Origin: Algibacter sp. L1A34
GTDB lineage: Bacteria > Bacteroidota > Bacteroidia > Flavobacteriales > Flavobacteriaceae
Direction: 5' to 3'
NCBI RefSeq assembly: GCF_009796805.1
Contig: NZ_CP047029.1
Span: 62,001-126,000 of the forward strand
DNA length: 64,000 nt
Of this stretch, positions 4,243 to 23,891 are shown piece by piece (position 1 is the stretch's first letter; each line of letters begins with the position of its first letter). The notes below the pieces were generated by a model. It made no database searches, was not told where the DNA came from, and saw nothing but the letters and a program-made list of their open reading frames with translations. The position numbers and the translations under genes are program-made.

Positions 4243-4255
4243 ATAAACTGATTTA

Positions 4256-8533: not shown

Positions 8534-8593
8534 CAATAATAAAAATTATAGAGTTTTTACTGTATAAATCATGAGCCTTTCCATATAAACTAT
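8534..8593 (-). promoter_or_regulatory. Shared PUL operator-promoter before the GH29 unit
   Basis: Reading leftward: box 1 ATAGTTTAT (8585-8593), 12-bp spacer, box 2 ATGATTTAT (8564-8572), 22-bp spacer, -7 box TATTATTG (8534-8541). Boxes match the ATAAWTTAT consensus at 8 and 7 of 9 positions. The geometry is exactly that of the susC promoters. Box centres are 21 bp apart, two DNA turns, as for paired AraC-type sites (inference). Confidence 0.7.
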
Positions 8594-8732
8594 AGCTTAT
8601 TTATGCGCTATATTAATAAAATAGGCTATTAACAAATAATTGGACGATTACAAACACGAATAAAACCCCTCAATTTACATGAGAATCTGTAAACTATTTT
8701 AAGACATATTTATAGTGAAAAACGAGATTAAA

Positions 8733-9593
8733 TTAATGGCGAGTTTCCTTTAAAATAAAATCCACAATTGGTTTTGGATCTTTTAAAGAATGAGGATGAT
8801 GCCCTACTTCTGGCTTGCGAATCATGTTTAATTCCCAACCCAAACTATTTAGTCGTTGCTCTAATAACGTGCTATTTTCTACAACAGGAACCACCTTATC
8901 GGCATCACCAACAATAATTAAAATAGGCACTTTTTGAACAGCGATATATTCCATATGATTTATTGGATTTCCTGAAAATTGAGTTGCAATTTCTTCAGAA
9001 AAACCATAACTCACTAAGCAGGCTTGCCATGCTTTTTTAGAGCCATCTCCAGTACCTTGCCCAGCAGGCCAACTTTTAAAATCGCAAACCGGAGCATCTG
9101 CATAAATACAAGCTACTTTTTCGGCATTTTGGTTGGCCCAATTAAAGATAATTAAACCACCTCTACTCATACCTTCTAATACAACTTTAGGATTCAATTT
9201 ATATTTTTTTATAATGAATTTGTAAAAACCATCCCAGATTTTCATAGCCTTTGGACTTCCGAATAAATTAGCGACTTCAATATACACCACATGAAAACCT
9301 GCGTTTAAAAGTGCAATATCGGTTTGTGGCTCGTGACCCCAAAATCGGGCGCGCCAAATCCAGTTTTTACTTGCATTCGCTTTTTTAGGAAACACCACTT
9401 TATAAGCCACGCCATTTAAGGTCGCTTCCTTTATTTTAAAACCATTCCATTCCTTTTTTACGGCTTCGTTTTCTTTGGAAATATATCTAATTGAAGTTTC
9501 AATATTAACGTTTGCTTCCGCAGAAATTATTTCAGAAGGAAAACAGTAAAAACTGTAAAATAGGATAATAAGTAAACTTAAATTTCTTTTCAT
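8733..9593 (-). CDS. Exported alpha/beta hydrolase (possible carbohydrate esterase)
   Basis: The 286-residue protein has an N-terminal signal peptide (about residues 1-20) and an alpha/beta-hydrolase fold. The nucleophile elbow is EGMSRGGL with Ser143, the acid is in IIVGDADKVVP (Asp230 or Asp232), and the His is in PEVGHHPHSL (265-268). It resembles prolyl-oligopeptidase/dienelactone-hydrolase-like proteins that often act as sugar acylesterases in polysaccharide loci. It is the last gene of the GH88 unit, 13 bp after the nucleoside-hydrolase-like gene, and is followed by a 241-bp gap with a new promoter. The substrate is not known; esterase function is an inference from the fold and neighbourhood. 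Confidence 0.75.
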   Translation of the reverse strand: MKRNLSLLIILFYSFYCFPSEIISAEANVNIETSIRYISKENEAVKKEWNGFKIKEATLNGVAYKVVFPKKANASKNWIWRARFWGHEPQTDIALLNAGFHVVYIEVANLFGSPKAMKIWDGFYKFIIKKYKLNPKVVLEGMSRGGLIIFNWANQNAEKVACIYADAPVCDFKSWPAGQGTGDGSKKAWQACLVSYGFSEEIATQFSGNPINHMEYIAVQKVPILIIVGDADKVVPVVENSTLLEQRLNSLGWELNMIRKPEVGHHPHSLKDPKPIVDFILKETRH

Positions 9594-9606
9594 TTTTTAA
9601 TATAGT

Positions 9607-10473
9607 TTAATGTATTGGGTTTTCGATAATTTCTCTTGCATCTTCAGGGCTTGTTTTTTGTTTTCCGGTTAGCAAATAAATAACCATACCAGCATCCGAT
9701 GGATCGAAATCACCTTTTTTAACACAAGTTAATTGCCTTTGATACAAACAATCTAATTGGTTTTTAGCTTCTTCGGAAGTATTTCTTATTGGCGAGGTTT
9801 TTATCCAATCGAACATGGCTTTTGGAGCTTTCATACCTTCGTAATCTTTCCCTCCATTTTGATCGGTTATTCTATCGCAAATAAGTCCGAAGGACTCAAA
9901 ATTTGCTTTAATTTCGTTCCAAGTCCAACCAGAATGATCTTCCCAATCGTAAGGTTTATCAGAATGTTTATCGTTCCAATTAGAATGAGAAATAATTCTA
10001 ACATATTTCAACTTTTCTTTTTTAGATTGTGAAATTGCAGATCCCACAACATGCATTGGCCCAGCAGCAACAATAGTTAACGGGTTGCTCGCTTTAGATT
10101 TATTAATTTCTTTTACAATGGCATTAATAGCTTTTGTAGAATCGGCAACCGCTTCTAAGAAATTACTTTTTTTAAAATTATATATTTTTTGCCCTTCTAA
10201 AGCACTGATTAACATTTCGGCTTTTCCCTTTTTCATTTGGTGATCACTGCCCCAAATATGATCGCTAAAAGTATAAACCGTAAGTTTATCTTGAAGTCCG
10301 CTTGCAGCCAACAGCGCTAACGAAAAAGGTGTTGCCGCCCAATCGTCGTGATCATGCTCATTACCATCAGAACTCACCACAACACGTCCAATAGAATACG
10401 GTATGGTCTGCGCGAAAAGATGAGAACTCAAAGTTAATGTTATACAAATAAGAACAAAACGAAGTTTTTTCAT
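9607..10473 (-). CDS. Secreted nucleoside-hydrolase-like protein of unknown function
   Basis: The 288-residue protein has a signal peptide ending SSHLFAQ. After it comes SSDGNEHDHDDWAATPFSL, an Asp-rich stretch that recalls the N-terminal Ca-binding DxDxxxDD motif of inosine-uridine-type nucleoside hydrolases. Further along, NPLTIVAAGPMHVVGSA resembles the family strand with GPLTNIA. Sequence elsewhere (ISHSNWNDKHSDKPYDWEDHSGWTW) is not typical of nucleoside hydrolases. It sits between GH88 and an esterase-like gene, 17 bp downstream of GH88, so a role as a glycosidase or processing enzyme in polysaccharide breakdown is plausible. The fold assignment is tentative and activity cannot be stated. 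Confidence 0.55.
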   Translation of the reverse strand: MKKLRFVLICITLTLSSHLFAQTIPYSIGRVVVSSDGNEHDHDDWAATPFSLALLAASGLQDKLTVYTFSDHIWGSDHQMKKGKAEMLISALEGQKIYNFKKSNFLEAVADSTKAINAIVKEINKSKASNPLTIVAAGPMHVVGSAISQSKKEKLKYVRIISHSNWNDKHSDKPYDWEDHSGWTWNEIKANFESFGLICDRITDQNGGKDYEGMKAPKAMFDWIKTSPIRNTSEEAKNQLDCLYQRQLTCVKKGDFDPSDAGMVIYLLTGKQKTSPEDAREIIENPIH

Positions 10474-10490
10474 TTTAAATGTGGTGTTTG

Positions 10491-11696
10491 TTAAATATTT
10501 TCTAGTTTCTTTAATCGCAATAAGGCTTCCATATAATAGTAATCGGCATAAATAATTGGTACGTCCATTTCTTTATTCTTAGGGTGATTTCCTGTGGAAT
10601 GCAATAGCAAGGCATCATTTTTAGCATGACTCAAATAAGCACTAGATGATAGATTTTCAACCAATGTTTTACCTGCGTTGAAATATTTAGATTTTAACTT
10701 TTCATCTTGAACCAAACCCGATAATTCCATTAAGCCACATGCTGCAACTGCTGCCGCAGAAGCATCTTTTGGTACATTAGGAATTTTAGGATCGTCGAAA
10801 TCCCAAAACGGAATACCATCTTCCGGTAAACGCTCTAAAAATTTATCTGAAAGTTTTATGGCAGTATTCAAAAAATTAGAATCACCAGTTTCACGATATG
10901 CCATTGCAAAACCATAAATTCCCCAACCTTGCCCTCGCGCCCACATGGATTCGTTAGCATAACCTTGATGTGTATAGCCTTGTAAAAACGCTCCTGTTTC
11001 CATATCGAAAGACCCAACATGAAATGCAGAACCGTCTTCCCTAACCAAATGCTTCATAGTTTGTTCTGCATGACTTTTAGCTATATTGTACAAACTTTTA
11101 TCTCCACCATTTTTAGCTGCCCAAAAAAGCAACTCTAAATTCATCATATTATCTATAATGGTGTTGTGCTTGTATCGCTTAATTTGAGAAGGCCAAGATA
11201 AAATACTACCAACTTTCGGGTTGTATAATGTTGCCAATGTATCGGCAGCGGCCAACAAAACCTCTTTGTAATTTTGGTTTCCTGTTAATCTATACCCATT
11301 ACCATAACTACAATATAACTGAAAACCGATATCGTGATTTCTCGCAGAACTGTATGCAATAACCTTAAGTGGTTCTGTGAAATTTACAGCCTGTTTCTTT
11401 AACCCCTCATCTCCTGAATATTCGTAAGCATACCACAACATACCTGGATAAAAGCCGCTACACCAATCTGTAGTTTTAACAAAACTCCATTGGGTATTGT
11501 TTTTATTAACGTGTCTCGGAAAACTATCAAAACGTGTATAAGTTTGTGCTACTGTTTTTATTTTTTCAACATTATTTTTTAGTATATTCTCTATATTAAA
11601 CTTAGAGGCTTCATTTAACGACCTTTCTTTTTTTGCAGAATTACAAGCAAAAATTAAACTCAACACTAAAAATGACACTAACTTAACTACACGCAT
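10491..11696 (-). CDS. GH88 unsaturated glucuronyl hydrolase, lipoprotein
   Basis: The 401-residue protein has a lipobox (SLIFAC, Cys18) and an alpha/alpha-barrel GH88 domain. Diagnostic segments are WCSGFYPGMLW (about 78-88), HDIGFQLYCSYGNGYRLTG with Asp122, DNMMNLELLFWAAKNGG with Asp182, and ESMWARGQGWGIYGFAMAYRETG. The two Asp residues correspond to the catalytic pair of the family. The enzyme hydrates 4,5-unsaturated uronates left at the non-reducing end by polysaccharide lyases, so it works downstream of the heparinase-type lyase at the other end of this gene set. It is the first gene of the leftward unit and is preceded by a shared-design promoter at 11760-11819. Confidence 0.93.
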   Translation of the reverse strand: MRVVKLVSFLVLSLIFACNSAKKERSLNEASKFNIENILKNNVEKIKTVAQTYTRFDSFPRHVNKNNTQWSFVKTTDWCSGFYPGMLWYAYEYSGDEGLKKQAVNFTEPLKVIAYSSARNHDIGFQLYCSYGNGYRLTGNQNYKEVLLAAADTLATLYNPKVGSILSWPSQIKRYKHNTIIDNMMNLELLFWAAKNGGDKSLYNIAKSHAEQTMKHLVREDGSAFHVGSFDMETGAFLQGYTHQGYANESMWARGQGWGIYGFAMAYRETGDSNFLNTAIKLSDKFLERLPEDGIPFWDFDDPKIPNVPKDASAAAVAACGLMELSGLVQDEKLKSKYFNAGKTLVENLSSSAYLSHAKNDALLLHSTGNHPKNKEMDVPIIYADYYYMEALLRLKKLENI

Positions 11697-11759
11697 TCTT
11701 TTTCGGTTTTAAAATATTCAACATAACGTTTTTAATAATCTGGCAAAACTTATTCCATT

Positions 11760-11819
11760 GCAAGTTATTATTTATTGAATTTATGATCGTTAAATTATCA
11801 ATCAAAAGCTATAAATTAT
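11760..11819 (-). promoter_or_regulatory. Shared PUL operator-promoter before GH88
   Basis: Reading leftward: box 1 ATAATTTAT (11811-11819, 9 of 9), 12 bp, box 2 ATAATTTAA (11790-11798, 8 of 9 to ATAAWTTAT), 22 bp, -7-like TAACTTGC (11760-11767). The spacings are identical to those of the susC promoters. The -7 box is the weakest of the six. The inferred transcript start lies about 58 nt before the GH88 ATG. Confidence 0.65.
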
Positions 11820-12032
11820 TGCTTAATTAAAGAGATAATTTCAATCTTACTAAAAAACAACGTTTTTATACTTGTGCTTCCTATATTCATCTGAACAAAA
11901 ATGTTCCTAACCTTCAATTTAAATATAATAAAATATTAAAAACTGATTAAGAACACTTTAATTAACTTCAAATTGAAAACACCTACTATACCTTAATTCT
12001 TTTATAAGGCAATTTATTTCGGAAAATAAGTC

Positions 12033-12092
12033 ATAATTTATAATGTTGAAGCGATAAATTATACACATTGGTCTAAAATATAAATAACATTG
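12033..12092 (+). promoter_or_regulatory. Shared PUL operator-promoter before susC1
   Basis: Box 1 ATAATTTAT (12033-12041), 12-bp spacer containing TTGAA, box 2 ATAAATTAT (12054-12062), 22 bp, -7 box TAACATTG (12085-12092), close to the Bacteroidota consensus TAnnTTTG. A TTGG 17 bp upstream of the -7 box may serve as the -33 element. Box 2 abuts this -33 position, as expected for an activator touching RNA polymerase. Confidence 0.75.
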
Positions 12093-12196
12093 TTAAGACT
12101 AAAACCACTTTAAGTACCTTTTTATTAAATATGTTTTAAAACATCAACTTCAAAACATTTTAAAACGGGTATTTAAAATCAACAAACTAAACTTTT

Positions 12197-15100
12197 ATGA
12201 TGAAAAAAACCAAACCTCAGACAAGTCTGAAAAAACCAGCAAATCTATTTTGGCTTATAGGCCTTCTAGTGTGCTGCATGACTACATTAGGGTATGCAAG
12301 TGCAAACCCTATTATTGAACAAAACAAAACTATTTCAGGAACTGTTGTTAGTGCCGAAGATAACATGGGTATTCCCGGCGTAAATGTTATCGTTAAAGGT
12401 ACTTCTACAGGAGCTGTAACAGATTTTGATGGAAATTACAGTATTACAGTACCTAACAACAATTCAACTCTTGTGTTTTCTTACATCGGTTATGTTTCTC
12501 AAGAATTGAATACAGGAAGTAAATCGACAATTAATGTGTCTTTAGAACCTGATGTTGCTGCCTTAGACGAAGTTATTGTAGTAGGGTATGGTACTCAGAA
12601 AAAAGAGACTCTTACCGGTTCTGTTGAACAAATTAAATCTGAAGCTTTTGCGGATTTAGCTCAAGGTAGTCCAGCATTGGCGCTTCAAGGTAGAACTCCA
12701 GGTTTAACAGTTACGCGTTCGTCATCTAGACCAGGCGATGAAGGTGTTAATTTCTTAATTAGAGGAGCTTCTTCTATTAATGGTATAGAACCACTTATTG
12801 TTATTGATGGTGTACCCTCAATAAACTCAGACTCTTTTAATAATATGAATCCGAATGATATTGAAAGTATAAGTGTACTTAAAGGTGGTTCGGCATCTGT
12901 ATATGGCTCTCGTGCCGCTGGTGGTGTTATTTTAGTAACCACTAAAAAAGGTCGTGGTGACGTTAAGGTTAATATAAGTTCTGTGCTCCGTATGGGAACC
13001 ATTGGTATTCGCCCGCCATCACCATCTATGTCGGAATATGGACAACTTTATTTAGCAGCAGTAGATGAGGATATTGCTTCAAGCAAACCTCCTCGTTATT
13101 TCTTTTGGAGCGACCGTGCAACTGTACAACGAATTGCTAACGGAGAAGAAGGTATTTATGATTTACCAATTAACGGAAGTGTTTATTTAGGAAACGCTCC
13201 TAGATTTGACGAGATGTTTGGTAACTCATACTCGAGCCAACATAATATTAGTGTTTCTGGTGGTACTGAAAACTCTAATTTCCGCATCTCTGCAGGTTAC
13301 GATCAAAATATTGGAGGTTTACTAGTAGCTGATGATGGTGTAGACAGATATAATTTCTCATTGAATTATAACGTTGATATTAGTGACAGATTGAACATTA
13401 ATACTAACGTTACCTATTTTGATAATATTTATTCTGGACCTTCAGGAGGCGTAGACAGTGAAGCTATTACTTATGATGCGCCATTGTTCCCAACGTATAA
13501 TCCTCTAGGACAATACTATGGTAATTTTGGTGGTAATATTGGCGGTGGAAAAAACTCTGTTGCTAATGCCATTGATGGTGGTCGTACAAATGACAAGAAC
13601 CAACAATTCAAAATAGCAGCAATAGCTACATACAAAATAACTGACGAGTTAAATGTTTCTGGATCTTATTCCCTTAGCAAGCAACATTCAGAAGATCAAA
13701 CCTATGAGATAACCGTTCCAACTTACAACTGGTATGGAGATGTAGCACCAGGTCAAGTTAATCCTACTTCATTTATTGAAGAAGAAACGGGGACTATTAC
13801 TTATAAAAACTATAAAGCTGCTTTAAACTATAGCAATAGCTTTGGAGACCATAATGTATCTGGGCTTTTAGCAATTGAAGCTGAGAAAAACACAAGCAAT
13901 GGTTTAAGAGCAAGAAGAAACGGATTTGTTGACTATGGTGTATATGATTTAGATTTAGGTGCATCAGACCAACAAATTACTACTGAAGGAGGTGGTAATA
14001 CTTGGGGTTTCTACGGATATATTGGTCGTGTAAATTACGATTATAAGAGTAAATACTTATTAGAATTGCAAGGCAGACGTGATGGGTCGTCAAGATTTGC
14101 TGAAGGAGCAAAATGGTCTAATTATGGAAGTATTTCTGCCGGTTGGGTATTAAGCTCAGAGGAGTTTCTACAAGATAGCAAGATTATTTCCTTCCTAAAA
14201 CTAAGAGGTGGTTATGGTGAATTAGGTAGTACATCTGGAATTGGTGAATTCGGGTACTTATCTACAGTAGGTTTTGGTAACACTGTATTTGGCCAAACAG
14301 ATGCTGGTCAACAAGTAACTTCTCGTGCAAGTAGTTTATTTAGTGGTACTACAACGTGGGAACGTATTGCAACCAAAGAAGTTGGTTTAGATTTTAGGAT
14401 GTTTACCTCTAAACTATTTGGTTCTTTAGACTTTTTTCAAAAAGATAATAAAGGTATGCTTGTTAGAGGTATAACACCAGATGTATTAGGTACTACGGCA
14501 CCTTATACTAATATTGGTACTTTACAAACTAAAGGGTGGGAAGTTATGTTAGGTTGGAGAGATCAAATTGAAGATTTCGAGTATACTGTAAGTGCTAACA
14601 TTAGTGATACTCGTAATGAAATCACTAAATATGACGGAGCCCAATCTGTAGTTGCCGGATTAAATGAAGCTTCAGAATCTGAAAATATTTTAGGAAGGCC
14701 TATTAACTCGTTATATTTATACGAAACAAACGGATATTTTGATTCTACAGCCGAAGTAATTGAGTACTACAATAGCTTAGAGGCAGGTGGCATTTTACCA
14801 TCACAAACATCTAACGACGCCTTACGACCAGGAGATATGAGAGTTATTGATTCAAATGGCGATGGTAAATTAGATGAAGGCGATTTAACTTACCAAGGCG
14901 ATAACGCAGCGCACTATGTATATGGAATAAATTTTGATATTAAGTATAAAAATTGGGATTTAAGCGCTTTTTTTCAAGGTACTTTAGAGCAGAAAGTTTA
15001 CAGAACAGGATTTTTTGCACAACCTTTCCAAGCAGAATGGCAAAATCAATCTAACACATGGTTAGGTAGAACCTGGACCGAAAACAATCGTAACGCAGAA

Positions 15101-15397
15101 TTTCCTAGATTAACTACGCAACGTGGATTATCTAAATGGAACTACCAATTTAAGGATCATATCCTTCAAAATAATCGTTACCTAAGACTTAAATCTTTAA
15201 TTATTGGTTATAATATTAAAGGTCTAAAACTTGGAAACACGCCAATAAACACCTTTCGTGTTTATTTCTCAGGAAATGATTTATTTGAGTTAACCACAGT
15301 AAAAGACGGTTACGACCCTGAATTTCAAGCAGACACAAATGCAAGTGCTTATCCGTTTATGCGTACTTGGGCATTAGGCTTAAAATTATCTATTTAA
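12197..15397 (+). CDS. SusC-like TonB-dependent outer-membrane transporter (copy 1)
   Basis: The 1066-residue protein has a long signal peptide (cleavage likely after GYASA, near residue 36), a carboxypeptidase-regulatory-like domain (about 45-125; GTVVSAEDNMGIPGVNVIVKG), then LDEVIVVGYGTQKKETLTGSV leading into the plug domain (about 130-250), and a beta-barrel to the C terminus (WALGLKLSI). No STN domain is present, so sigma/anti-sigma signalling through it is unlikely. With the SusD lipoprotein 31 bp downstream it would form the pedal-bin oligosaccharide importer of the locus. An ATGATG start leaves two adjacent start codons. The first ~110 residues nearly match the second SusC at 18175; the barrel does not, so the two probably take different ligands or chain forms. 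Confidence 0.96.
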   Translation: MMKKTKPQTSLKKPANLFWLIGLLVCCMTTLGYASANPIIEQNKTISGTVVSAEDNMGIPGVNVIVKGTSTGAVTDFDGNYSITVPNNNSTLVFSYIGYVSQELNTGSKSTINVSLEPDVAALDEVIVVGYGTQKKETLTGSVEQIKSEAFADLAQGSPALALQGRTPGLTVTRSSSRPGDEGVNFLIRGASSINGIEPLIVIDGVPSINSDSFNNMNPNDIESISVLKGGSASVYGSRAAGGVILVTTKKGRGDVKVNISSVLRMGTIGIRPPSPSMSEYGQLYLAAVDEDIASSKPPRYFFWSDRATVQRIANGEEGIYDLPINGSVYLGNAPRFDEMFGNSYSSQHNISVSGGTENSNFRISAGYDQNIGGLLVADDGVDRYNFSLNYNVDISDRLNINTNVTYFDNIYSGPSGGVDSEAITYDAPLFPTYNPLGQYYGNFGGNIGGGKNSVANAIDGGRTNDKNQQFKIAAIATYKITDELNVSGSYSLSKQHSEDQTYEITVPTYNWYGDVAPGQVNPTSFIEEETGTITYKNYKAALNYSNSFGDHNVSGLLAIEAEKNTSNGLRARRNGFVDYGVYDLDLGASDQQITTEGGGNTWGFYGYIGRVNYDYKSKYLLELQGRRDGSSRFAEGAKWSNYGSISAGWVLSSEEFLQDSKIISFLKLRGGYGELGSTSGIGEFGYLSTVGFGNTVFGQTDAGQQVTSRASSLFSGTTTWERIATKEVGLDFRMFTSKLFGSLDFFQKDNKGMLVRGITPDVLGTTAPYTNIGTLQTKGWEVMLGWRDQIEDFEYTVSANISDTRNEITKYDGAQSVVAGLNEASESENILGRPINSLYLYETNGYFDSTAEVIEYYNSLEAGGILPSQTSNDALRPGDMRVIDSNGDGKLDEGDLTYQGDNAAHYVYGINFDIKYKNWDLSAFFQGTLEQKVYRTGFFAQPFQAEWQNQSNTWLGRTWTENNRNAEFPRLTTQRGLSKWNYQFKDHILQNNRYLRLKSLIIGYNIKGLKLGNTPINTFRVYFSGNDLFELTTVKDGYDPEFQADTNASAYPFMRTWALGLKLSI

Positions 15398-15428
15398 GAA
15401 GAACACGAAATAATTAAATTCGAAACAA

Positions 15429-17225
15429 ATGAAAAAATTAAGATATATAATATTACCGTGCTTGATGATGGTTTTAGCATCCTGCGCAGATGAATTTATA
15501 GATTTAACACCCCCAGCTGAAATTACTGACGAAGTTTATTTCAACGAAGCCGAACATTTTAATGCCGCTGCAAATAGATTTTATACTTATTTGTTAGATT
15601 GGAAAGACCAAGGTATTTATTCTGATCATGGATCAGACTTAATAGGCTATGATGAGGATAGTGAAATGCAAGTATACAGTAGAGGATTAATTCAAGCTCA
15701 AGCGAATGACGACTACTATTCAGACACTTATGAAGCCATTAGAGATATTAATCTTTTAATTTCAAGAGCAGAAAATTACGATGGTGAAGAAAGTATCGTA
15801 GAATATGTAGCTGCCACTAAATTTCATAGAGCATGGCAGTATTTCTTTTTAATACAGCGATATGGTGGCGTACCACTAATTACTCAACCATTAACTGAAA
15901 ATTCTGAAGAACTTTATGGAGCCAGAAACAGTAGGTACGAAGTAGTAGCACAAATCATTACAGATTTGGACGATGCAATAGCTGGATTACCTAGAGAACA
16001 AGATGTTGCTTCTGACGACAAAGGAAAAATCAGTAAATGGGCTGCTATGGCATTTAAAGCTGATGTCTTATTACACGAAGCCACATGGATGAAAAACGTT
16101 GGTACTACTACAGACGGTGATGGTGTATCTGCAGGTGCAGGTAGCGAAGGCTACGATCCATCTAAAATAGAACCTTACTTACAAGAAGTTGTTACATTAA
16201 CTAAAACAGTAATGGATCAAGGTGGTTTTGAACTTTGGAATTACAATAACGTCCTTGATAATTTAAGCCACAATTTCTTATTCAATTTAGAAGGTTCTGG
16301 TTCTAACCCTGCAGGTTTAGACAAGGCAACTAATAAAGAATTTATCTTTTATAGTAAATTCGATTTTACATTTAGACAAGCCGGAACTTTAGTGAGTCAC
16401 GTTTACCAAGGTAGAACAAAGCCTAGTAGAAAAATGATGGACATGTTTTTAACTACATCAGGTTTACCAATTGATAAGCCACTAAGTGGTTTCGCAGGGT
16501 ACACCAACCCAGAAGATGAGTTCCAAAATAGAGATTTAAGAATGAGAGCGTATTTTACCAATCATAAATTCTTAGGTGTAATTCCAACTATTGATAACGA
16601 TCCTGAATTAAGATTAGATGGTACCAACAAATTTGGATATTTTAATTCCAAATTTATGAGTTGGAAATGGGGTACAGATGAGGCTTATAGAGCTACAGCT
16701 ACTGAGAGTTATGATATGCCACATATACGCCTTGCAGAAGTATACTTAATGTATGCTGAAGCATTATATGAGCTAAACGGCGCAATTACTGATGGAGAAC
16801 TTACTGAGTCTATTAATCTAGTAAGGGATAGAGCAGGATTACCGGCTTTAACTAATGCATTTGTAGCTGCTAACAACTTAGATATGCTAAACGAAATAAG
16901 AAGAGAGCGTACGATTGAATTATTTGCCGAAGGTGCAACTCGATTTAACGACCTTAAACGTTGGGGATTAGCCGAAGCTGAATTAGGTGAAACTATTTTC
17001 GGCGCGGTTATTGAAGGTACTGTATATGAGAATAATACTGCTATTTATAACCCTGAAGTTTATGGATATGGAGAAGGTGTAGCAGAAACAGGTGTCGGAG
17101 AAAGAAGAGCAGTGATTGTTCAGCCAGCATCAATCCGGAATTTTTCTAGGGATAATTATTTATTCCCTTTACCTACTTCTCAAACAGGGTTAAACGCTAA
17201 TCTACAACAAAACCCAGGTTACTAG
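15429..17225 (+). CDS. SusD-like glycan-binding lipoprotein (copy 1)
   Basis: The 598-residue protein has a lipoprotein signal (MMVLASC, Cys near residue 19) and the SusD/RagB architecture: an N-terminal TPR-rich part (FHRAWQYFFLIQRYGGVPLITQPL) and the C-terminal family region with LAEVYLMYAEALYEL, INLVRDRAGLPAL, NEIRRERTIELFAEGATRFNDLKRW and the closing FPLPTSQTGLNANLQQNPGY. It is the surface lid and glycan-binding partner of the upstream SusC. A strong hairpin follows 36 bp after the stop, ending the susC1-susD1 unit. Confidence 0.96.
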   Translation: MKKLRYIILPCLMMVLASCADEFIDLTPPAEITDEVYFNEAEHFNAAANRFYTYLLDWKDQGIYSDHGSDLIGYDEDSEMQVYSRGLIQAQANDDYYSDTYEAIRDINLLISRAENYDGEESIVEYVAATKFHRAWQYFFLIQRYGGVPLITQPLTENSEELYGARNSRYEVVAQIITDLDDAIAGLPREQDVASDDKGKISKWAAMAFKADVLLHEATWMKNVGTTTDGDGVSAGAGSEGYDPSKIEPYLQEVVTLTKTVMDQGGFELWNYNNVLDNLSHNFLFNLEGSGSNPAGLDKATNKEFIFYSKFDFTFRQAGTLVSHVYQGRTKPSRKMMDMFLTTSGLPIDKPLSGFAGYTNPEDEFQNRDLRMRAYFTNHKFLGVIPTIDNDPELRLDGTNKFGYFNSKFMSWKWGTDEAYRATATESYDMPHIRLAEVYLMYAEALYELNGAITDGELTESINLVRDRAGLPALTNAFVAANNLDMLNEIRRERTIELFAEGATRFNDLKRWGLAEAELGETIFGAVIEGTVYENNTAIYNPEVYGYGEGVAETGVGERRAVIVQPASIRNFSRDNYLFPLPTSQTGLNANLQQNPGY

Positions 17226-17260
17226 TGAAAGTAAAAAAAGGAATTTATATTTGATACTTT

Positions 17261-17300
17261 AAAAACCGGCAAATCGAAAATTCGATTTGCCGGTTTCATT
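17261..17300 (+). terminator. Intrinsic terminator after susD1
   Basis: A 16-bp perfect stem (17263-17278 with 17281-17296; AAACCGGCAAATCGAA and its complement) is followed by CATTTT. It lies 36 bp after the susD1 stop. It differs in sequence from the terminator after susD2. Confidence 0.85.
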
Positions 17301-17407
17301 TTCAATCCGCCCAAATTAAAGTTTTAAAAGTAACTTTCCCGAATACATTGTTACCTCCTTTAATATAAAAATTTATTGCTTACCCATCAAAACGACTAAA
17401 ATAAATG

Positions 17408-17467
17408 ATAATTTATACATATTGAATCATAAATTATATCCAATTTATTTAAAATACTATAATATTG
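17408..17467 (+). promoter_or_regulatory. Shared PUL operator-promoter before small unit 1
   Basis: Box 1 ATAATTTAT (17408-17416), 12 bp, box 2 ATAAATTAT (17429-17437), 22 bp, -7 box TAATATTG (17460-17467). All box bases match the susC1 site and all spacings are identical, yet no long ORF follows; the next feature is a terminator about 110 bp downstream. Confidence 0.75.
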
Positions 17468-17471
17468 TAAG

Positions 17472-17612
17472 AGGAAGCCTGGAACATTTGTTTTAGAGAA
17501 AATGTATTTTATGGCAACCTATTTTCATATTAGTTACAAATATATTTATAGTTTAAGTTAGTTTTTTTTAAATTAAAAAAAAGCAGTTATAATTTTATAA
17601 CTGCTTTTTTTA
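17472..17612 (+). ncRNA. Candidate PUL-linked small RNA or micropeptide mRNA, copy 1
   Basis: A transcript of about 140 nt is predicted from the promoter ending at 17467 to the hairpin terminator at 17575-17611. The sequence is strongly conserved in the second copy (23651-23791), including AATGT/ATGGCAACC, TTTTCATATTAGTTACAAATATAT and AGTTAGTTTTTTTT-like stretches, while the protein genes between the copies have diverged far more. It contains a short ORF at 17511-17561. Whether the product is RNA, peptide, or both cannot be decided from sequence. No member of a known RNA family is recognised. Confidence 0.5.
17511..17561 (+). CDS. Possible 16-residue micropeptide in small unit 1
   Basis: The ORF encodes MATYFHISYKYIYSLS; an in-frame upstream ATG at 17502 would add three residues. 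GAGAAAAT lies upstream. The second copy encodes MATNFHISYKYIIV, so 11 of the first 12 residues agree, after which a one-base length difference changes the frame. Conservation may be due to nucleotide conservation alone, so coding is only a possibility. Confidence 0.25.
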   Translation: MATYFHISYKYIYSLS

Positions 17613-17613
17613 T
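17575..17613. terminator. Hairpin terminator of small unit 1 (usable both ways)
   Basis: A-rich arm plus GCAGTTATAA pairs with TTATAACTGC plus T-run (17576-17592 with 17595-17611). Being A-rich on one side and T-rich on the other, it can stop transcription from either strand. The same hairpin occurs at 23754-23789. Confidence 0.85.
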
Positions 17614-17713
17614 GTCTATAAATAATTTCACTTCATATTAAAACACAAAATATCACCATTAACGACGGACTTTCACATAGAGACGGACTAAAAACAATTA
17701 TATATGCTAATAA

Positions 17714-17870
17714 TTATTTTTCCGTTTTTGTAACTGAAATTCCATTTTAATATATAAGTAGTAGTGTCATGAATTTTAGTATAATTAGCAGCTGTCATTT
17801 TTTTAGAATTTTTCGTTTTAAAAGCTGCTCCATGTTTAATCAAAAATTCCAAAATTTTAGTCTTGCAAAA
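17714..17870 (-). pseudogene. Decayed 3' fragment of the ankyrin-repeat gene
   Basis: The segment aligns with the 3' part of the complete ankyrin gene at 23892-24290. Shared stretches on the plus strand include CATGAATTTTAG, AGCAGCTGTCATTTTTTT and GCTGCTCCATGT. The leftward reading gives AANYTKIHDTT where the intact gene has AAKYAKIHGAT, then loses frame and similarity near the C terminus. It stops abruptly near 17,870 where susC2 upstream sequence begins. This is what a tandem duplication with a breakpoint inside the ankyrin gene would leave. Confidence 0.75.
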
Positions 17871-18013
17871 AACAACGTCTATATACTTAAAATTTCATTT
17901 TTTACCTTAAAAAAGATCTTAAATACTGATTAATAGACCTTAATATATTTTGAGCTCAAAACACCTCTTTTCCTTAATTATTATTGAAGGCAATTTATGA
18001 CAAAAAATGAATC

Positions 18014-18073
18014 ATAATTTATCATTTTGAAGTGATAAATTACACTAAATTATCTAAAATATAAATAACATTG
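18014..18073 (+). promoter_or_regulatory. Shared PUL operator-promoter before susC2
   Basis: Box 1 ATAATTTAT (18014-18022), 12-bp spacer with TTGAA, box 2 ATAAATTAC (18035-18043), 22 bp, -7 box TAACATTG (18066-18073). Only the last base of box 2 differs from the susC1 site. A leader of about 95 nt precedes the susC2 ATG. Confidence 0.75.
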
Positions 18074-18174
18074 TAAGACTAAAAATCACTTTAAAAATTT
18101 CTTAATTGAAAACGTTTTAAAAGTTCAATTAAGAAGTTTTTTAGAGGGAAATATTATAGAACAAACAAAATTTT

Positions 18175-21100
18175 ATGATGAAAAAAACAAAAACTCAGAC
18201 AGGTCTGAAAAAAACAGCAAATCTATTTTGGCGTATAAGCCTTTTAGTTTGCTTCATGACTACAATGGGGTATGCAAGTGCAAATCCTATTATTGAACAA
18301 AACAAAACGATTACAGGAACGGTTATAAGTGCCGAAGATAACATGGGGATTCCCGGAGTAAATGTTATCGTGAAAGGTACTTCTACAGGAGCTGTAACAG
18401 ATTTTGATGGAAATTATAGTGTTAAAGTACCTAACAACAATTCAACTCTTGTATTTTCTTACGTAGGTTTTATGACACAAGAATTAATTGTAGGAAACAG
18501 TTCTACTATAAATGTATCACTAAAAGCCGATGTTGCCGCTTTAGACGAAATTATTGTTGTTGGTTTCGGTACACAAAAAAAAGCTACGCTTACGGGATCT
18601 GTAGCACAAGTAAAAGGGGACGATGTTGTAAAAGGTAAGGGTACTTCTAGTGCCGTTTTAGCTTTACAAGGTGAGGTTCCTGGTTTAGTTGTTACACGTA
18701 CATCTACCCGTCCTGGTGTAGAAGGAACATCTATTAATATTCGTGGAGATATTTCTGTAAATAGTATAAGTCCGCTTATTTTATTAGATGGTGTTGAAAT
18801 TTCACAAAGTGATTTGGCTGCTATTAATGCAAACGATATTGAAACGTATTCTGTTTTAAAGGATGCGTCTGCTGCAATTTTTGGTACTAAAGCTGCAGGA
18901 GGTGTTATTTTAGTCACTACTAAAAAAGGTAAATCTGGTAAAATGAAAATCTCTTATAAAGGTGAAACACAATTAAACTTTGTAAAAGACTTTCCCGTAG
19001 CTAATATGAAAGAGTTTGCAGAGGCTTGGTTGGTCGCTGGAAGAAATGATGCTATTGACTTTGTAGATGGGACCGGAAATCAACAAACAGCAGCAACAAG
19101 TTTTAGATTTTTTACTGAAGATGAATTTATGAATATGGCTAATGGCACATTGCCTACAGCTCCAGATTCTTATTATTGGGCAGGAAAAGATAATTATTTT
19201 TCTGACACAAGCCAATTTGATGCCGTTTACGGCACAACTATTACAGAAAGACACGATTTTTCACTTTCTGGAGGTAATGAAAATGCAACCTATAGAACAT
19301 CTTTTGGATATGCCAACGAGCGTTCTCCTATATCAGTAGTATACGATGGGCAAAAACGTTACAACTTCCGTACAAATGTGGGGTATAAGGTTAGTGATTT
19401 AGTAAAAACAGATTTTAATATATCATACAATAGTAATATAATTGATACTCCAACTCAAGGTATTGGATATGGGATTCAAGATATGAATATATTCCCATTG
19501 TATAATCCAGATGGACAGTTTTACGATAATTTCGGAGGAAACAATCCACTAGCATATTTAAAAGAAGGTGGTCGTGTAAAAAATAGAACTAATGTGTTTC
19601 GCTTAGGAGGTAAAGTTACATTAGACTTAGATAAGTATGTTGAAGGTTTATCTTTCTCTTACTTTGGAAACATAGCAATGACACAAAGTAGAAAAAATAA
19701 AACATGGAAACCTGTAACCATGTACGATTGGCAAGGTATTGAAACAAGTACTCCAACAACTTTAGGAAATGCTAAACTAGAAGTAACTGAAGCCGATTAC
19801 GTATTCCAAAACCATATTTTCCAAGCAAATTATAATCGTTCTTTCGGAAAACATAATTTAGGAATTATGGTTGGATATACCGCAGAACAATCAGAAACAG
19901 ACAAGTATTTCATGTCTCGTTCTAATTTAGTTGATGCCTCTTTAAACGATTTAAATGCTTTCGACGCTACTACGCAAACAAATAGTGGTGGTAGTAATGT
20001 TGTTGGTTTAGTATCTTACCTAGGAAAAATAAATTACGATTATAATGGTATTTATTTATTAGAAGTATTAGGTCGTCGAGATGGATCTTCTCGTTTACAC
20101 CCAGATTACAGATGGAAAAACTTCCTTGGTGCATCTGGAGGTATTGTATTTTCAGAAATGTCATTTATGGATGATAGTACGATTAATCTATTAAAATTAC
20201 GTGCTTCTTATGGAGAAACAGGATCGGTAACAGGTATCGGTGCTTACGATTATTACTCTAGCATTGGTAATGGCACTGTATTATTTGGTAGTACTCCACA
20301 ATTAGCTGTAACATCGAATATTAGTGGAATGACTTCTTTTCAACGTTCTTGGGAACGTGTATCAACAAGTAACATTGCAGTAGATTTTGGTTTATTAAAT
20401 AACAGATTAACAGGTACTGCAGAATATTTTATTCGTAAAAATGACGATATGTTAATTAATATAACATATCCCCAAATATTAGCTGCTACGGCTCCAAAAA
20501 CGAATAGTGGTAATTTTGAAACTAAAGGTTACGAATTGTCTTTAAACTGGAGAGATCGTATAGGAGACGATTTTACATATCGTGTAGGACTTGCATTTTG
20601 GGATAACGATAGTGAAGTTACCAAAATGGAAGGTAAAAGCCTTATTGCTTTGGGTACAAACGATATTCTTGAAGGGAAACCATTAAATGCAATATATGCG
20701 TATAAAACGGATGGTATATTATCTTCAGAAAGCGAAGTGTTAGAATACTATAATCAATATGGATTTGCAGATCCTTCAGACCAAACAAACATGAAAAATG
20801 GTACAAAATTACCAAATTATAGAAGTGAAGATCGTTTAGTTCCAGGAACCGTTAATCGTGTAGATGTCAGTGGAGATGGTATTATTGATGAAGATGATTT
20901 AGTGTATATAGGCGATGCAAATCCACATAAAAGTTTTGGTATTAATTTAGGGTTCTCTTATAAAAACTTCGATTTTAGTGCGTTCTTCCAAGGAGTTGCA
21001 GAAGTAAATATCGTTAGAACAGGATCTCTTTCTTATCCATTTATGCAATGGTGGACAAACCAAAACCCAATTTTCACAAACAAGACCTGGACAGAAGATA

Positions 21101-21417
21101 ATCAAGATGCTGAATATCCTGCAGCTTTCTTTAATGGAGCTAGAAAAAAATGGAATTATGGAGATTTAAACGATAGAAATGTTATTAAAGCCTCTTATCT
21201 AAGAGCTAAAACAATATCTGTAGGATACAGGTTACCAGAAACTGTTTTAGATAGAATGGGAATGGACAAAGTACGTTTCTCTCTAACAGGTAGCGATTTG
21301 TTTACAATTTCGAACATAAAAGATGGGTTAGATCCTGAATTTGGTGAAGGAACTAGACAAGGGAATATGGTGCCTTTTTCATCTGCATTGACCTTTGGAG
21401 TTGAACTAGCATTTTAA
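18175..21417 (+). CDS. SusC-like TonB-dependent outer-membrane transporter (copy 2)
   Basis: The 1080-residue protein has the same layout as the first SusC: signal peptide ending GYASA, carboxypeptidase-regulatory-like domain (about 45-125), LDEIIVVGFGTQKKATLTGSV, plug domain, and barrel ending TFGVELAF. Residues 1-105 nearly match copy 1 and the DNA is about 90 percent identical there, but from the end of that domain onward the similarity falls sharply. Its SusD partner begins 24 bp downstream. Divergence in plug and barrel suggests a different ligand from the same polysaccharide, or a second substrate under the same regulator. Confidence 0.96.
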   Translation: MMKKTKTQTGLKKTANLFWRISLLVCFMTTMGYASANPIIEQNKTITGTVISAEDNMGIPGVNVIVKGTSTGAVTDFDGNYSVKVPNNNSTLVFSYVGFMTQELIVGNSSTINVSLKADVAALDEIIVVGFGTQKKATLTGSVAQVKGDDVVKGKGTSSAVLALQGEVPGLVVTRTSTRPGVEGTSINIRGDISVNSISPLILLDGVEISQSDLAAINANDIETYSVLKDASAAIFGTKAAGGVILVTTKKGKSGKMKISYKGETQLNFVKDFPVANMKEFAEAWLVAGRNDAIDFVDGTGNQQTAATSFRFFTEDEFMNMANGTLPTAPDSYYWAGKDNYFSDTSQFDAVYGTTITERHDFSLSGGNENATYRTSFGYANERSPISVVYDGQKRYNFRTNVGYKVSDLVKTDFNISYNSNIIDTPTQGIGYGIQDMNIFPLYNPDGQFYDNFGGNNPLAYLKEGGRVKNRTNVFRLGGKVTLDLDKYVEGLSFSYFGNIAMTQSRKNKTWKPVTMYDWQGIETSTPTTLGNAKLEVTEADYVFQNHIFQANYNRSFGKHNLGIMVGYTAEQSETDKYFMSRSNLVDASLNDLNAFDATTQTNSGGSNVVGLVSYLGKINYDYNGIYLLEVLGRRDGSSRLHPDYRWKNFLGASGGIVFSEMSFMDDSTINLLKLRASYGETGSVTGIGAYDYYSSIGNGTVLFGSTPQLAVTSNISGMTSFQRSWERVSTSNIAVDFGLLNNRLTGTAEYFIRKNDDMLINITYPQILAATAPKTNSGNFETKGYELSLNWRDRIGDDFTYRVGLAFWDNDSEVTKMEGKSLIALGTNDILEGKPLNAIYAYKTDGILSSESEVLEYYNQYGFADPSDQTNMKNGTKLPNYRSEDRLVPGTVNRVDVSGDGIIDEDDLVYIGDANPHKSFGINLGFSYKNFDFSAFFQGVAEVNIVRTGSLSYPFMQWWTNQNPIFTNKTWTEDNQDAEYPAAFFNGARKKWNYGDLNDRNVIKASYLRAKTISVGYRLPETVLDRMGMDKVRFSLTGSDLFTISNIKDGLDPEFGEGTRQGNMVPFSSALTFGVELAF

Positions 21418-21441
21418 TTAAGAACTTTTAATTTAAAGAAT

Positions 21442-23334
21442 ATGAAAAATATACATTATAATATAAAACGAATAGGGCTAACAGCCGTAGTTTCAGTATT
21501 CATGTTTACTGGATGCTCAGATTATTTAGACCAGGAACCACTGGATTCTGTTACCGAAGCAGTATATTTTAGCACTGCAGAACAGTTTGAAAATGCTGCA
21601 AATTATTTTTACCGCGCATCTTTAGGATATGATGCCGGAGATGAATCTTCAGATTTATCAGGAAATCTTGCCACTTCTCCGTCTTATGGACAAGGGCAAT
21701 CATCTATTCCTGTTACAGATGCTGTTTGGTCAGGTAATTATGGTCAATTAAGAGAACCAAATCAATTAATTGAAAAAGCTGCAGAATACAATGGAAATCA
21801 ATCAGAAATTGCTGGATCTGTTGCTACAGCTTACTTCTTTAGAGCTTGGTGTCATTACAATTTATTACAACGTTTTGGAGGTGTACCAATAGTTACACGT
21901 TCTTTAGATGTAGATTCAGAAGAATTATATGAAACAAGAAACAGTCGTTACGAAGTGGTAGACCAAATTCTTAGCGATTTAGACGTAGCTATAGCAGATT
22001 TACCTTCAGAAAACAGTATTCCAGATTCAGGAAAAGGTAAACTTTCAACAGAAGCGGCTAGAGCATTTAAAGCACGTGTTTTATTATACGAAGCAACTTG
22101 GGAAAAATACGTAGGTACAACTACAGATGGAGACGGCATTAGCACAGGAGCCGGGTCTAATAAACCAGTAAATTACCCTAGTGTAGACGAGATGTTTACA
22201 GAAGCAAAAGAACAATCTTTGGCAGTTATTAATAGTGGAGCTTATGAATTATGGGATCACCGTAATGAATTTGGCGATAGAAACTTATTTTATCTATTTA
22301 ATTTAGAAGATGAAGGATCTAATCCTGCTGGCTTATCTAAAGCAAATAATAAAGAATTTATAATTCAAACCGTTTACGATTATACATTAAGAAGTATAAA
22401 TAAAAACCTAACACACTCTAAAGCGCATACTCCATCTCGTAAATTAATGGATATGTACTTATGTACAGATGGTTTACCTGTTCAACATTCTTCAGTATTT
22501 GAAGGCTATGATTTAATGAATTCAGAATTTCAAAATCGTGATTATCGCTTAACTAGCTTTGTTAGCGAACCTCTAAAAGAATACTGGGGTTGGGGAAATA
22601 GCGTAGAAGGTGGAGGAGCACAATATGGTGTAGACTTCGCAGACGCAGGTACTAATTATGATTATAGATATGTGCCGGAATTAACAAGCCCAGGAGCCAG
22701 ACGTAATATTGGTTATAGAGGTATTAAGCTTACCACTGAATATAAATTAAGAGAAACCAAAGATGAATCTTTTAATTACCCACATTTACGTTATGCTGAA
22801 GTACTATTAACATATGCGGAAGCAACTGTAGAATTAGGAGGAGGAACAATTTCAGATGGTGATTTAAATATCTCTATCAACAAAATTAGAGAACGTTCTA
22901 ATGTAGCACCTTTAACTAATGCATTAATTGCACCATTTTCAGACTTAACTATGTTAGGTGAAATACGAAGAGAACGTGCTATCGAGTTATTTGGTGAAAA
23001 TCAACGTTTCAACGATTTAAAACGTTGGGGTATAGCAGAAGAAGAACTTGGTCATACTGTAGCAACCACTTATGTAGATGGTACAGAGTTTGAAACAGCT
23101 ACCAATCCAAAGAATCCAACTTCTACAATTTATCGTCCAAGTGCATTTTCTTATGGAACAACAACCTCAGAAGAATCTGTATCTTCTTATTCTGGTATTG
23201 CAACAACGAAACCAGGAGCTTTAATTTTAGATATTGCTGGGAATAGAAATTTCTCTATAGATAATTATGTAGACCCTATTCCTTCCGGTCAAATAGATCA
23301 AAATCCAAACTTATTACAAAACCCAGGTTGGTAA
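21442..23334 (+). CDS. SusD-like glycan-binding lipoprotein (copy 2)
   Basis: The 630-residue protein has a lipoprotein signal (VFMFTGC, Cys near residue 25) and SusD/RagB features: AYFFRAWCHYNLLQRFGGVPIVTRSL, SRYEVVDQILSDLD, LRYAEVLLTYAEATVEL, INKIRERSNVAPL, GEIRRERAIELFGENQRFNDLKRWG and PIPSGQIDQNPNLLQNPGW. It is the binding partner of the second SusC. It is 32 residues longer than copy 1, with inserts near the middle (GWGNSVEGGGAQYG region) and before the C terminus. A terminator follows 35 bp after the stop. Confidence 0.96.
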   Translation: MKNIHYNIKRIGLTAVVSVFMFTGCSDYLDQEPLDSVTEAVYFSTAEQFENAANYFYRASLGYDAGDESSDLSGNLATSPSYGQGQSSIPVTDAVWSGNYGQLREPNQLIEKAAEYNGNQSEIAGSVATAYFFRAWCHYNLLQRFGGVPIVTRSLDVDSEELYETRNSRYEVVDQILSDLDVAIADLPSENSIPDSGKGKLSTEAARAFKARVLLYEATWEKYVGTTTDGDGISTGAGSNKPVNYPSVDEMFTEAKEQSLAVINSGAYELWDHRNEFGDRNLFYLFNLEDEGSNPAGLSKANNKEFIIQTVYDYTLRSINKNLTHSKAHTPSRKLMDMYLCTDGLPVQHSSVFEGYDLMNSEFQNRDYRLTSFVSEPLKEYWGWGNSVEGGGAQYGVDFADAGTNYDYRYVPELTSPGARRNIGYRGIKLTTEYKLRETKDESFNYPHLRYAEVLLTYAEATVELGGGTISDGDLNISINKIRERSNVAPLTNALIAPFSDLTMLGEIRRERAIELFGENQRFNDLKRWGIAEEELGHTVATTYVDGTEFETATNPKNPTSTIYRPSAFSYGTTTSEESVSSYSGIATTKPGALILDIAGNRNFSIDNYVDPIPSGQIDQNPNLLQNPGW

Positions 23335-23368
23335 TAATAAAAACATTTTTTTAAATTAGTTGTTTTAG

Positions 23369-23406
23369 AAACTGCAGATTGATTTTATCAGTCTGCAGTT
23401 TTTTTT
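23369..23406 (+). terminator. Intrinsic terminator after susD2
   Basis: AAACTGCAGA (23369-23378) pairs with TCTGCAGTTT (23392-23401), followed by a T-run to 23406. The loop region is TTGATTTTATCAG. Confidence 0.85.
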
Positions 23407-23586
23407 ATGCTCAAATACAAGGTGTTACCATACCTCTAATGAATATGAATAAACTGAACATCTAGTACTTGCCAACAATATCTATGATCTAATACATTGC
23501 TTCAAAAAAAATCTTAATAAAATACTGTTTTCATCTATAAATGAAAAACATCTGTATTTACTAGGCAAAAAGGTTTAAAATGATTT

Positions 23587-23646
23587 ATAATTTATAGTAA
23601 TAGAACCATAAATTATATCCAATTTCTTCAAAATACTATAATATTG
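23587..23646 (+). promoter_or_regulatory. Shared PUL operator-promoter before small unit 2
   Basis: Box 1 ATAATTTAT (23587-23595), 12 bp, box 2 ATAAATTAT (23608-23616), 22 bp, -7 box TAATATTG (23639-23646). The layout is identical to the site before small unit 1. The inter-box spacer has drifted (TAGAA for TTGAA) while both boxes are unchanged, which argues for selection on the boxes. Confidence 0.75.
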
Positions 23647-23689
23647 TACAAGGAAGTCTTAGAGATTTGTTTTGGAGAAAATAAATGTT

Positions 23690-23734
23690 ATGGCAACCAA
23701 TTTTCATATTAGTTACAAATATATTATAGTTTGA
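23690..23734 (+). CDS. Possible 14-residue micropeptide in small unit 2
   Basis: The ORF encodes MATNFHISYKYIIV. GGAGAAAAT is 10-15 nt upstream. An overlapping ORF from ATG at 23685 (MLWQPIFILVTNIL) is better placed for that purine-rich site but has no start in copy 1. Coding is uncertain. Confidence 0.22.
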   Translation: MATNFHISYKYIIV

Positions 23735-23753
23735 GTTAGTTTTTTTTTAATTA

Positions 23754-23790
23754 AAAAAAAGCAGTTATAAATTTATAACTGCTTTTTTTA
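23754..23790. terminator. Hairpin terminator of small unit 2 (usable both ways)
   Basis: A perfect 36-bp palindrome (23754-23789): seven A, GCAGTTATAAA, its complement, seven T. It is the counterpart of 17575-17611. Confidence 0.88.
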
Positions 23791-23823
23791 CGTCTATAAG
23801 AATTTCACTTCTTGTTTAAAAAC

Positions 23824-23852
23824 AAAAAAGCCACCATTAACGGCAGCTTTTT
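23824..23852 (-). terminator. Probable terminator of the ankyrin gene
   Basis: AAAAAGC (23825-23831) and GCTTTTT (23846-23852) flank a 14-nt loop. In leftward reading the hairpin ends in a T-run. It is 40 bp past the ankyrin stop codon. The copy-1 counterpart is degraded. Confidence 0.55.
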
Positions 23853-23891
23853 ACAGAGTGACTAACTCAAAATAATTATATATGTTAATAA

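Follow-up and report, generated by a model that had tools for sequence, protein, structure and literature searches.

The locus and its six sites

The window analysed here, a 64,000-nt stretch of Algibacter sp. L1A34 (NZ_CP047029.1, positions 62,001 to 126,000), carries a polysaccharide utilization locus (PUL), recognized by tandem susC-susD genes together with carbohydrate-active enzymes, and within it six 60-bp sites of one layout: two ATAAWTTAT-like boxes separated by 12 bp and then, after a further 22 bp, a -7-type octamer, with identical spacing in all six. Very probably these sites are the operator-promoters of a single regulon governed by a hybrid two-component system (HTCS), the substrate of which is probably a sulfated, fucose- and uronate-containing glycan. 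Positions refer to the window unless preceded by C1, which marks coordinates on the genome contig; G000 denotes the source genome. The six putative operator-promoters are:

8534-8593, minus strand: GH29 unit; boxes ATAGTTTAT and ATGATTTAT, -7 box TATTATTG
11760-11819, minus strand: GH88 unit; second box ATAATTTAA, weak -7 box TAACTTGC
12033-12092, plus strand: susC1-susD1; two perfect boxes
17408-17467, plus strand: predicted small RNA 1; site read directly
18014-18073, plus strand: susC2-susD2; second box ATAAATTAC
23587-23646, plus strand: predicted small RNA 2; site read directly

The genes that surround them are:

1939-6706, minus strand: remaining genes of the GH29 unit (a protein without Pfam match, a sugar MFS transporter, an esterase and a sulfatase)
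6719-8491, minus strand: GH29 alpha-L-fucosidase (Pfam Alpha_L_fucos), first in the unit read from 8534
8733-9593, minus strand: alpha/beta hydrolase of the GH88 unit
9607-10473, minus strand: protein of the GH88 unit without Pfam match
10491-11696, minus strand: GH88-type gene (Pfam Glyco_hydro_88), first in the unit read from 11760
12197-15397, plus strand: susC1, TonB-dependent receptor (Pfam Plug, CarbopepD_reg_2)
15429-17225, plus strand: susD1 (Pfam SusD_RagB)
17640-17870, minus strand: remnant of an ankyrin-repeat gene, a mark of the duplicated right end; the intact gene (Pfam) is at 23892-24290
18175-21417, plus strand: susC2, 45% identical to SusC1 overall, with about 90% DNA identity over the first 300 bp
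21442-23334, plus strand: susD2, 46% identity with SusD1

The open reading frame (ORF) call of the GH29 gene begins at 8536, upstream of the likely ATG as read from the translation, and strand and spacing suggest that the genes at 1939-6706 lie on the GH29 transcript. No protein gene follows the sites at 17408 and 23587, and these two seem to switch on small RNA genes rather than protein genes.

The two susCD modules, profiled in 100-column steps, are alike at their ends, with 79% identity in the promoter, 89-91% in the first 300 bp of susC and 80-93% along the small RNA stretch, and the ankyrin-repeat gene and its remnant are 72-86% identical before similarity is lost; the module core, made up of the rest of susC and susD, shows mostly 40-65% DNA identity. 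Shared ends and unlike cores identify 12033/18014 and 17408/23587 as duplicate pairs, and the six sites are therefore not independent of one another. The cores ahead of the shared right end also differ among relatives, being of the SusC1 type (94%) in G300 and SusC2-like (62%) in G301, while G299 has a SusC2-like pair followed by a broken third-type susCD (44% to SusC1). This second pair of G299 is split into several reading frames (L165:4654-9675) and is either a pseudogene or an assembly error. The association of shared ends with swapped susCD cores, here and in relatives, resembles core exchange via recombination in the ends. Codons 7-12 of susC1 and susC2 (around 12217-12231 and 18195-18209) hold a small inverted repeat, TCAGAC..GTCTGA, which is also present in G301 and G299 and altered in Cellulophaga and Aureibaculum, and which possibly forms an RNA hairpin near the start codon.

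Layout, frequency and repeat direction

An earlier note on this DNA had described the six sites, and its positions, equal spacing and 21-bp box period all read as it gave them; it had put the box matches at 7-9 positions, and all twelve boxes do match ATAAWTTAT well, the actual range being 8 or 9 of 9. The weakest -7 box is that of the 11760 site (TAACTTGC). The 8534 site recurs in G299, G300 and G301 with 2 mismatches.

When both strands of the window were scanned for box pairs spaced at 21 bp, allowing up to 2 mismatches over the two boxes together, with a TA..TT-type octamer at +22, only the six sites were returned, compared with a mean of 0.020 and a maximum of 1 in 400 first-order Markov windows. 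Without the -7 condition there were 6 places in the window (Markov mean 0.545, maximum 5; 200 windows). Among box spacings from 10 to 60 bp, considered on their own, 21 bp was the most frequent with 6 pairs, the remaining spacings having a mean of 0.70 and a maximum of 4. The random-frequency check that the earlier note had proposed for the whole genome came out above control: at up to 3 mismatches there were 10 forward and 10 reverse matches versus 3 and 2 for the reversed pattern. Eight of these 20 rows, corresponding to seven places, come from the window PUL with the part that extends to its left; at 73.8 kb a single near-palindromic place was counted on both strands and gives two rows.

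Because ATAAWTTAT is its own reverse complement, the boxes alone cannot give a direction. A half-site consensus was taken from 35 selected sites (6 of the window, 5 elsewhere in the genome and 24 of relatives; loci such as L217, L224, L225, L229 and L233 and the relatives' small RNA sites stood outside this set) and reads aaAA.gA.c.ATAATTTATA....TTGAat.ATAATTTAT. Most of the 35 sites have two ATAATTTAT-like boxes in the same direction, with TTGAat before the inner box and a weaker gA.c counterpart before the outer one, and this flank with its counterpart favours a direct repeat of 21-bp period, although not every window site, taken singly, has a distinct flank. The favoured layout is of the kind that, in the accessible part of the report by Ravcheev et al. 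(2013, PMC3878776), was predicted for 16 HTCS of Bacteroides thetaiotaomicron, with direct repeats at an average distance of 21 bp.

The regulon beyond the window and in relatives

Sites of this kind mark four loci in the source genome. Beyond the window they are found at:

C1:44830: before the third susCD pair, 2 mismatches
C1:2351199: before an HTCS-linked susCD operon, 0 mismatches
C1:4595128: before a second, distant GH88-type gene, 0 mismatches
C1 2.73-2.77 Mb: weaker sites with 2-3 mismatches, before genes for a GH95 enzyme, a sulfatase and a leucine-rich-repeat (LRR) domain protein

The presence of the same kind of site would place these genes in the regulon. At the GH95 gene the distance to the -7 box is 21 rather than 22 bp as judged by eye, and no HTCS is among the listed ORFs of the 2.73-2.77 Mb locus. 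A spaced variant of the operator is present at 1377834, and the match at 3343335, which is within a coding region, looks like chance, as do several of the 3-mismatch matches.

The PUL extends to the left of the window (G000:C1:28001-62000; L005, L006) with a third susCD, GH29 and GH30 genes, a sulfatase and heparinase-like and alginate-lyase-like genes. Together with GH88, GH95 and KduI elsewhere in the regulon, these enzymes are the reason for thinking that a sulfated fucose- and uronate-containing glycan may be the substrate.

SusC1 orthologues were compared at nine loci of 68-94% identity from Algibacter, Cellulophaga, Aureibaculum, Maribacter and Flavobacterium, some of them from near-identical species; the operator scan covered these nine, and 71 distant loci (33% or less) lay outside it. 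In 9 of 9 loci susC was preceded by a site whose gap to the -7 box was again 22 bp (at most 3 mismatches in 18 box positions), and in seven a divergent site was present at the GH88-type gene. Within the genus, regulon sites are kept in the three other genomes that have the HTCS described below, while a fourth without it retains one site; the GH29, HTCS-linked and GH88-type sites were seen in three other genus genomes and the susC3 site in two.

A distant HTCS is the candidate regulator

The window contains none of the 21 AraC-type helix-turn-helix (HTH) domains encoded by the genome, the closest being at C1:477901. The earlier note had guessed that the regulator gene would be near the left end of the locus; no such gene was present among the ORFs of the 52 kb left of the window (C1:10001-62000), a family search there was likewise negative, and the candidate was located instead at 2.35 Mb, 2.27 Mb from the window locus:

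C1:2346652-2350848: candidate HTCS, 1398 aa, with Reg_prop, Y_Y_Y, HisKA, HATPase_c, Response_reg and HTH_18 domains

This one protein unites a periplasmic propeller/Y_Y_Y sensor, HisKA, HATPase, a receiver and an AraC-type HTH. In three Maribacter loci an HTCS gene directly follows the orthologous susD, and the candidate is 62% identical to this Maribacter-locus HTCS, rising to 73-75% over the last 130 residues, versus 29-32% and 36-41%, respectively, for six other long Y_Y_Y-type HTCS of the genome. An additional 988-aa HTCS-like protein (C1:3313698), which stood outside the six-HTCS comparison, reaches 38% over the matched part. The candidate gene is followed after 354 bp by a perfect operator, ahead of a fasciclin-domain gene and a susCD pair.

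Co-occurrence was assessed in 299 family genomes, with the HTCS scored at E of at most 1e-300 and the operator at no more than 1 mismatch. Fourteen genomes had the HTCS and 16 the operator (both, 13; HTCS only, 1; operator only, 3; neither, 282), for which a Fisher test that ignores shared ancestry gives p = 4e-19, a value that overstates independence because the genomes are related. The reversed pattern was matched in 4 of the 299 genomes. Outside the source genome, the HTCS-bearing genomes have 24 sites, of which 20 fall within 20 kb of the HTCS gene. Four genomes, namely G061, G014, G121 and the source genome G000, have sites 63-605 bp from that gene. Co-occurrence in 13 of the 14 HTCS genomes thus supports the earlier proposal of a single activator encoded outside the window, and the HTCS at C1:2346652-2350848 is likely to be that activator; the "two small units" listed among its targets are better described as predicted small RNA genes.

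At the G014 site 175 bp from the HTCS gene (G014:C1:3707414-3707473, L231), a terminator-like hairpin follows at 177 nt, and the next ORF comes at 470 nt; the stretch after this operator may represent a leader or one more short unit.

Two predicted small RNA units

The sites at 17408 and 23587 are each followed by about 140 nt closed by a strong intrinsic terminator:

17468-17612, plus strand: predicted small RNA 1, with a 5' hairpin (GG-AA-GCC...GGC-AA-CC), the conserved stretch TATAGTTT(A/G)AGTTAGTTTTTT and an intrinsic terminator
23647-23787, plus strand: predicted small RNA 2; with the promoter included, identity to copy 1 is 88%

Small RNA 1 probably starts about 5 nt further in than 17468; a start about 6 nt past the -7 box would let the RNA open with the GG of the hairpin. 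The unit is present in 5 of 5 genus genomes, ahead of the ankyrin-repeat gene and gpmI (copy 1 of the source genome precedes the ankyrin remnant), and among the sites examined the small RNA class is the only one without an ORF of at least 90 aa within 700 bp. The terminator stands at 134-140 nt in four of the five genus genomes and is weaker, at 171 nt, in G153. By sequence, both source copies and the units of G299, G300 and G301 have what is expected of an intergenic terminated small RNA, namely a promoter, no conserved ORF and a terminator.

Across four species, mean pairwise identity was 0.80 for the operator-promoter, 0.78 for the first 12 nt and 0.87 for the unpaired stretch around TATAGTTTGAGTTAGTTTTTT, compared with 0.44 for the upstream sequence, 0.43 for the middle of the unit and 0.51 for the downstream sequence; the terminator was 0.81-0.89 identical among three species and 0.11 against G153. 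This between-species comparison replaces a constraint argument built on 88% identity of the small RNAs versus 45% of the SusC proteins, which was dropped since that contrast proves little when the ends were duplicated after the cores had diverged.

Single-row folds of five of six rows, from three lineages, share a frame consisting of an outer GG-CC, a small internal loop and an inner helix, the letters of which vary by lineage (GCC-GGC, GUCGUU-AACGAU and GUUCUAAA-UUUAGAGC). In the fixed frame the inner helix has 3, 3, 6, 6 and at least 8 pairs in G000_1, G000_2, G301, G299 and G153, and these lengths were reached by 1866, 2121, 154, 120 and 8 of 20000 mononucleotide shuffles, respectively; G300, which does not fit the hairpin frame, was left out of this test. 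A cross-lineage control that combined the G301 5' arm with the G000_1 3' arm still gave 5 pairs. RNAalifold found the 5' hairpin with five rows and the terminator helix only with six, and the whole 5' part was more stable than its shuffles in G301 and G299 only (6 and 8 of 300; others 88, 68, 121 and 149 of 300). The picture is that of a predicted regulatory RNA with a hairpin at its 5' end, a conserved stretch left unpaired, and a terminator.

Rfam returned a single match for 17300-18200 (29 bits against a gathering score of 49, minus strand), hence none at threshold, and nine for 23500-23900, all below gathering and eight of them on the minus strand. Outside the genus, BLAST of 299 genomes matched seven, at the terminator end only, and a search of 397 genomes with model R1, which failed to recover the known G153 unit, gave five weak matches (49.6-55.2 bits), at whose loci any box pair had 4 or more mismatches.

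Candidate targets were ranked by pairing of the conserved stretch with 185 start regions, drawn from about 316 kb of the source genome; duplex prediction with nearly whole RNAs had been set aside because it gave long low-complexity pairings only. With the conserved stretch alone, susC2 ranked 1st, susC1 8th and susC3 44th of 185; when the variant form found in small RNA 1 was used instead, they ranked 13th, 67th and 30th, the other tested regulon genes being 126th or lower. Shuffled seeds, scored on every second start region, did at least as well as the observed rank of susC2 in 7, of susC1 in 25 and of susC3 in 111 of 300 trials, and the corresponding numbers for G300, G301 and G299 were 17, 127 and 33 of 300. 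The pairing place, +4 to +26, is common to five susC genes of the genus, the starts of which are homologous, and is not shared by susC3; in genomes that lack the unit, two of five susC orthologues still rank 11th and 17th. Given the shuffled seeds, the copy 1 letters and these orthologues, pairing of the unpaired stretch with the susC start is a lead and not a result.

Weighing the alternatives

The sites could be read by another AraC-type protein or by a different regulator, the HTCS being merely co-inherited with the PUL, and several observations pull in that direction and away from the HTCS. The genome holds 20 further AraC-type HTH domains; G183, G297 and G153 carry a site and no HTCS orthologue, and G236 has the HTCS and no site within 1 mismatch; in the source genome only one of six sites (at most 1 mismatch) is near the HTCS gene, to which the window locus is unlinked. 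G299 (C25:58539-62684), G301 (C1:4004913-4009058) and G300 (C9:60153-64295) encode a second HTCS that has 59-60% identity with the candidate and was not seen in the source genome; in two of them, G299 and G301, its gene is closely followed by an operator with 2 mismatches, so that recognition may not be exclusive. The small RNA of G153 (C1:46251-46425, L166) has retained its operator, at 1 mismatch, along with both the hairpin and the unpaired stretch, while its terminator differs, in a genome whose best match to the HTCS is 33%; no other operator within 2 mismatches was found in G153, and a search for susCD, which covered the 19 kb surrounding the unit, was negative. Either a recent loss, or an RNA with another regulator and target, would account for this case. 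We nevertheless regard a different regulator as improbable, because the sites track the HTCS gene itself, down to the short distances seen in G061, G014, G000 and G121, because the DNA-binding end of the candidate stands well apart from those of the six other long Y_Y_Y HTCS in its identity to the Maribacter orthologues, and because the repeat geometry equals that published for HTCS, as far as the accessible text of PMC3878776 describes it. An inverted-repeat operator of a LacI-, GntR- or TetR-type repressor is suggested by box 1 ATAATTTAT and box 2 ATAAATTAT being exact reverse complements in three of the six window sites; with the boxes of most of the 35 aligned sites co-directional and each preceded by its flank (TTGAat at box 2, the weaker gA.c at box 1), we give this explanation hardly any credence.

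As for the short units, they may be nothing but leftover promoters at duplicated susCD right ends, each with a terminator and without a functional RNA. They do belong to the duplicated end, their middle is poorly conserved (0.43), the six-row RNAalifold run recovers the terminator helix only, the terminator is not the same in G153, and four of six rows show nothing unusual in the stability of their 5' part. Yet the operator, the -7 box and the unpaired stretch are kept across four species while the flanks are not, and five of six unaligned folds from three lineages have the same GG, internal loop and inner helix with different paired letters; leftover promoters therefore seem to us unlikely, though worth keeping in mind. 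That the units encode a micropeptide (MATYFHISYKYIYSLS / MATNFHISYKYIIV) was prompted by a short frame from a shared ATG in both source-genome copies, but a one-base indel already makes the two frame ends differ and the ATG region is lost in G301, G299, G300 and G153; the frames are not conserved, and this very improbable reading was rejected.

A proposed mechanism

Under the HTCS reading that we prefer, in which binding, activation, the ligand and the transcript starts are all predictions, the HTCS (C1:2346652-2350848) would sense an oligosaccharide in the periplasm and become phosphorylated, and its AraC-type domains would bind the two direct half-sites of 21-bp period, the inner of which adjoins the -33 region. 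RNA polymerase would then start a few bases beyond the -7 box, so that both susCD pairs, the GH88 unit, the GH29 unit and two transcripts of about 140 nt would be induced together. It is conceivable, if doubtful, that the HTCS thereby also places a brake on its own regulon: the co-induced small RNA that ends each susCD module would pair with the start of the susC mRNA and limit the transporter after the glycan has been sensed, as in an incoherent feed-forward loop, with a hairpin whose shape is kept while its letters change, and with module ends (promoter and small RNA) that are shared while the susCD core is swapped.

Relation to known systems

In Escherichia coli AraC, a cytoplasmic arabinose receptor, the I1-I2 half-sites are direct, have a 21-bp period and lie beside the promoter; the sites described here are similar in half-site period and promoter position, the sensor in this case being a membrane HTCS. 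There is also a likeness to the HTCS regulons of B. thetaiotaomicron, for which the accessible part of PMC3878776 predicts direct repeats, on average 21 bp apart, upstream of susC and enzyme operons, distant operons being included in some regulons. The Algibacter regulon differs from what is described there in belonging to marine Flavobacteriaceae, in its motif, in having its candidate regulator 2.3 Mb from the main locus and in the predicted short non-coding units under the operator.

Small RNAs are associated with susC operons in Bacteroides as well. DonS-type cis-antisense RNAs are described, in the portions of PMC7366714 and PMC10994844 available to us, as short, associated with susC operons, and divergent from and antisense to susC; the units at 17468 and 23647 resemble them as short predicted RNAs at susC operons, and differ in lying on the susC strand, downstream of susD, with the PUL's own operator. 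FopS and GibS, as far as the accessible text of PMC11697453 goes, are paralogous small RNAs, many of them intergenic, and FopS RNAs are about 65-70 nt long, have canonical promoters, are induced by bile salts and pair near susC start codons. The present units are likewise paralogous and intergenic, but are about 140 nt long and have an HTCS-type operator; the distinction from FopS is drawn from that description and not from the seed sequence. In the literature on PUL small RNAs and HTCS operators, so far as its accessible parts extend, we encountered DonS-type RNAs, GibS, FopS, MasB and HTCS direct repeats and no small RNA under an HTCS operator, which is a weak absence as subscription journals were little covered; the same search yielded no mapped HTCS operators for this marine group. 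The operator layout is of a known kind, and predicted small RNAs under the PUL's HTCS operator are what is new.

What was a motif noticed by eye is now, for this marine group, a regulon that can be tested and whose presumed regulator gene has been named. Having become separated from the locus, that regulator apparently keeps its tie to the sites. The predicted small RNAs stand directly under the PUL's own activator, unlike the antisense and the bile-induced RNAs of Bacteroides, and if they act on susC, one signal would both induce the transporter and set its dosage.

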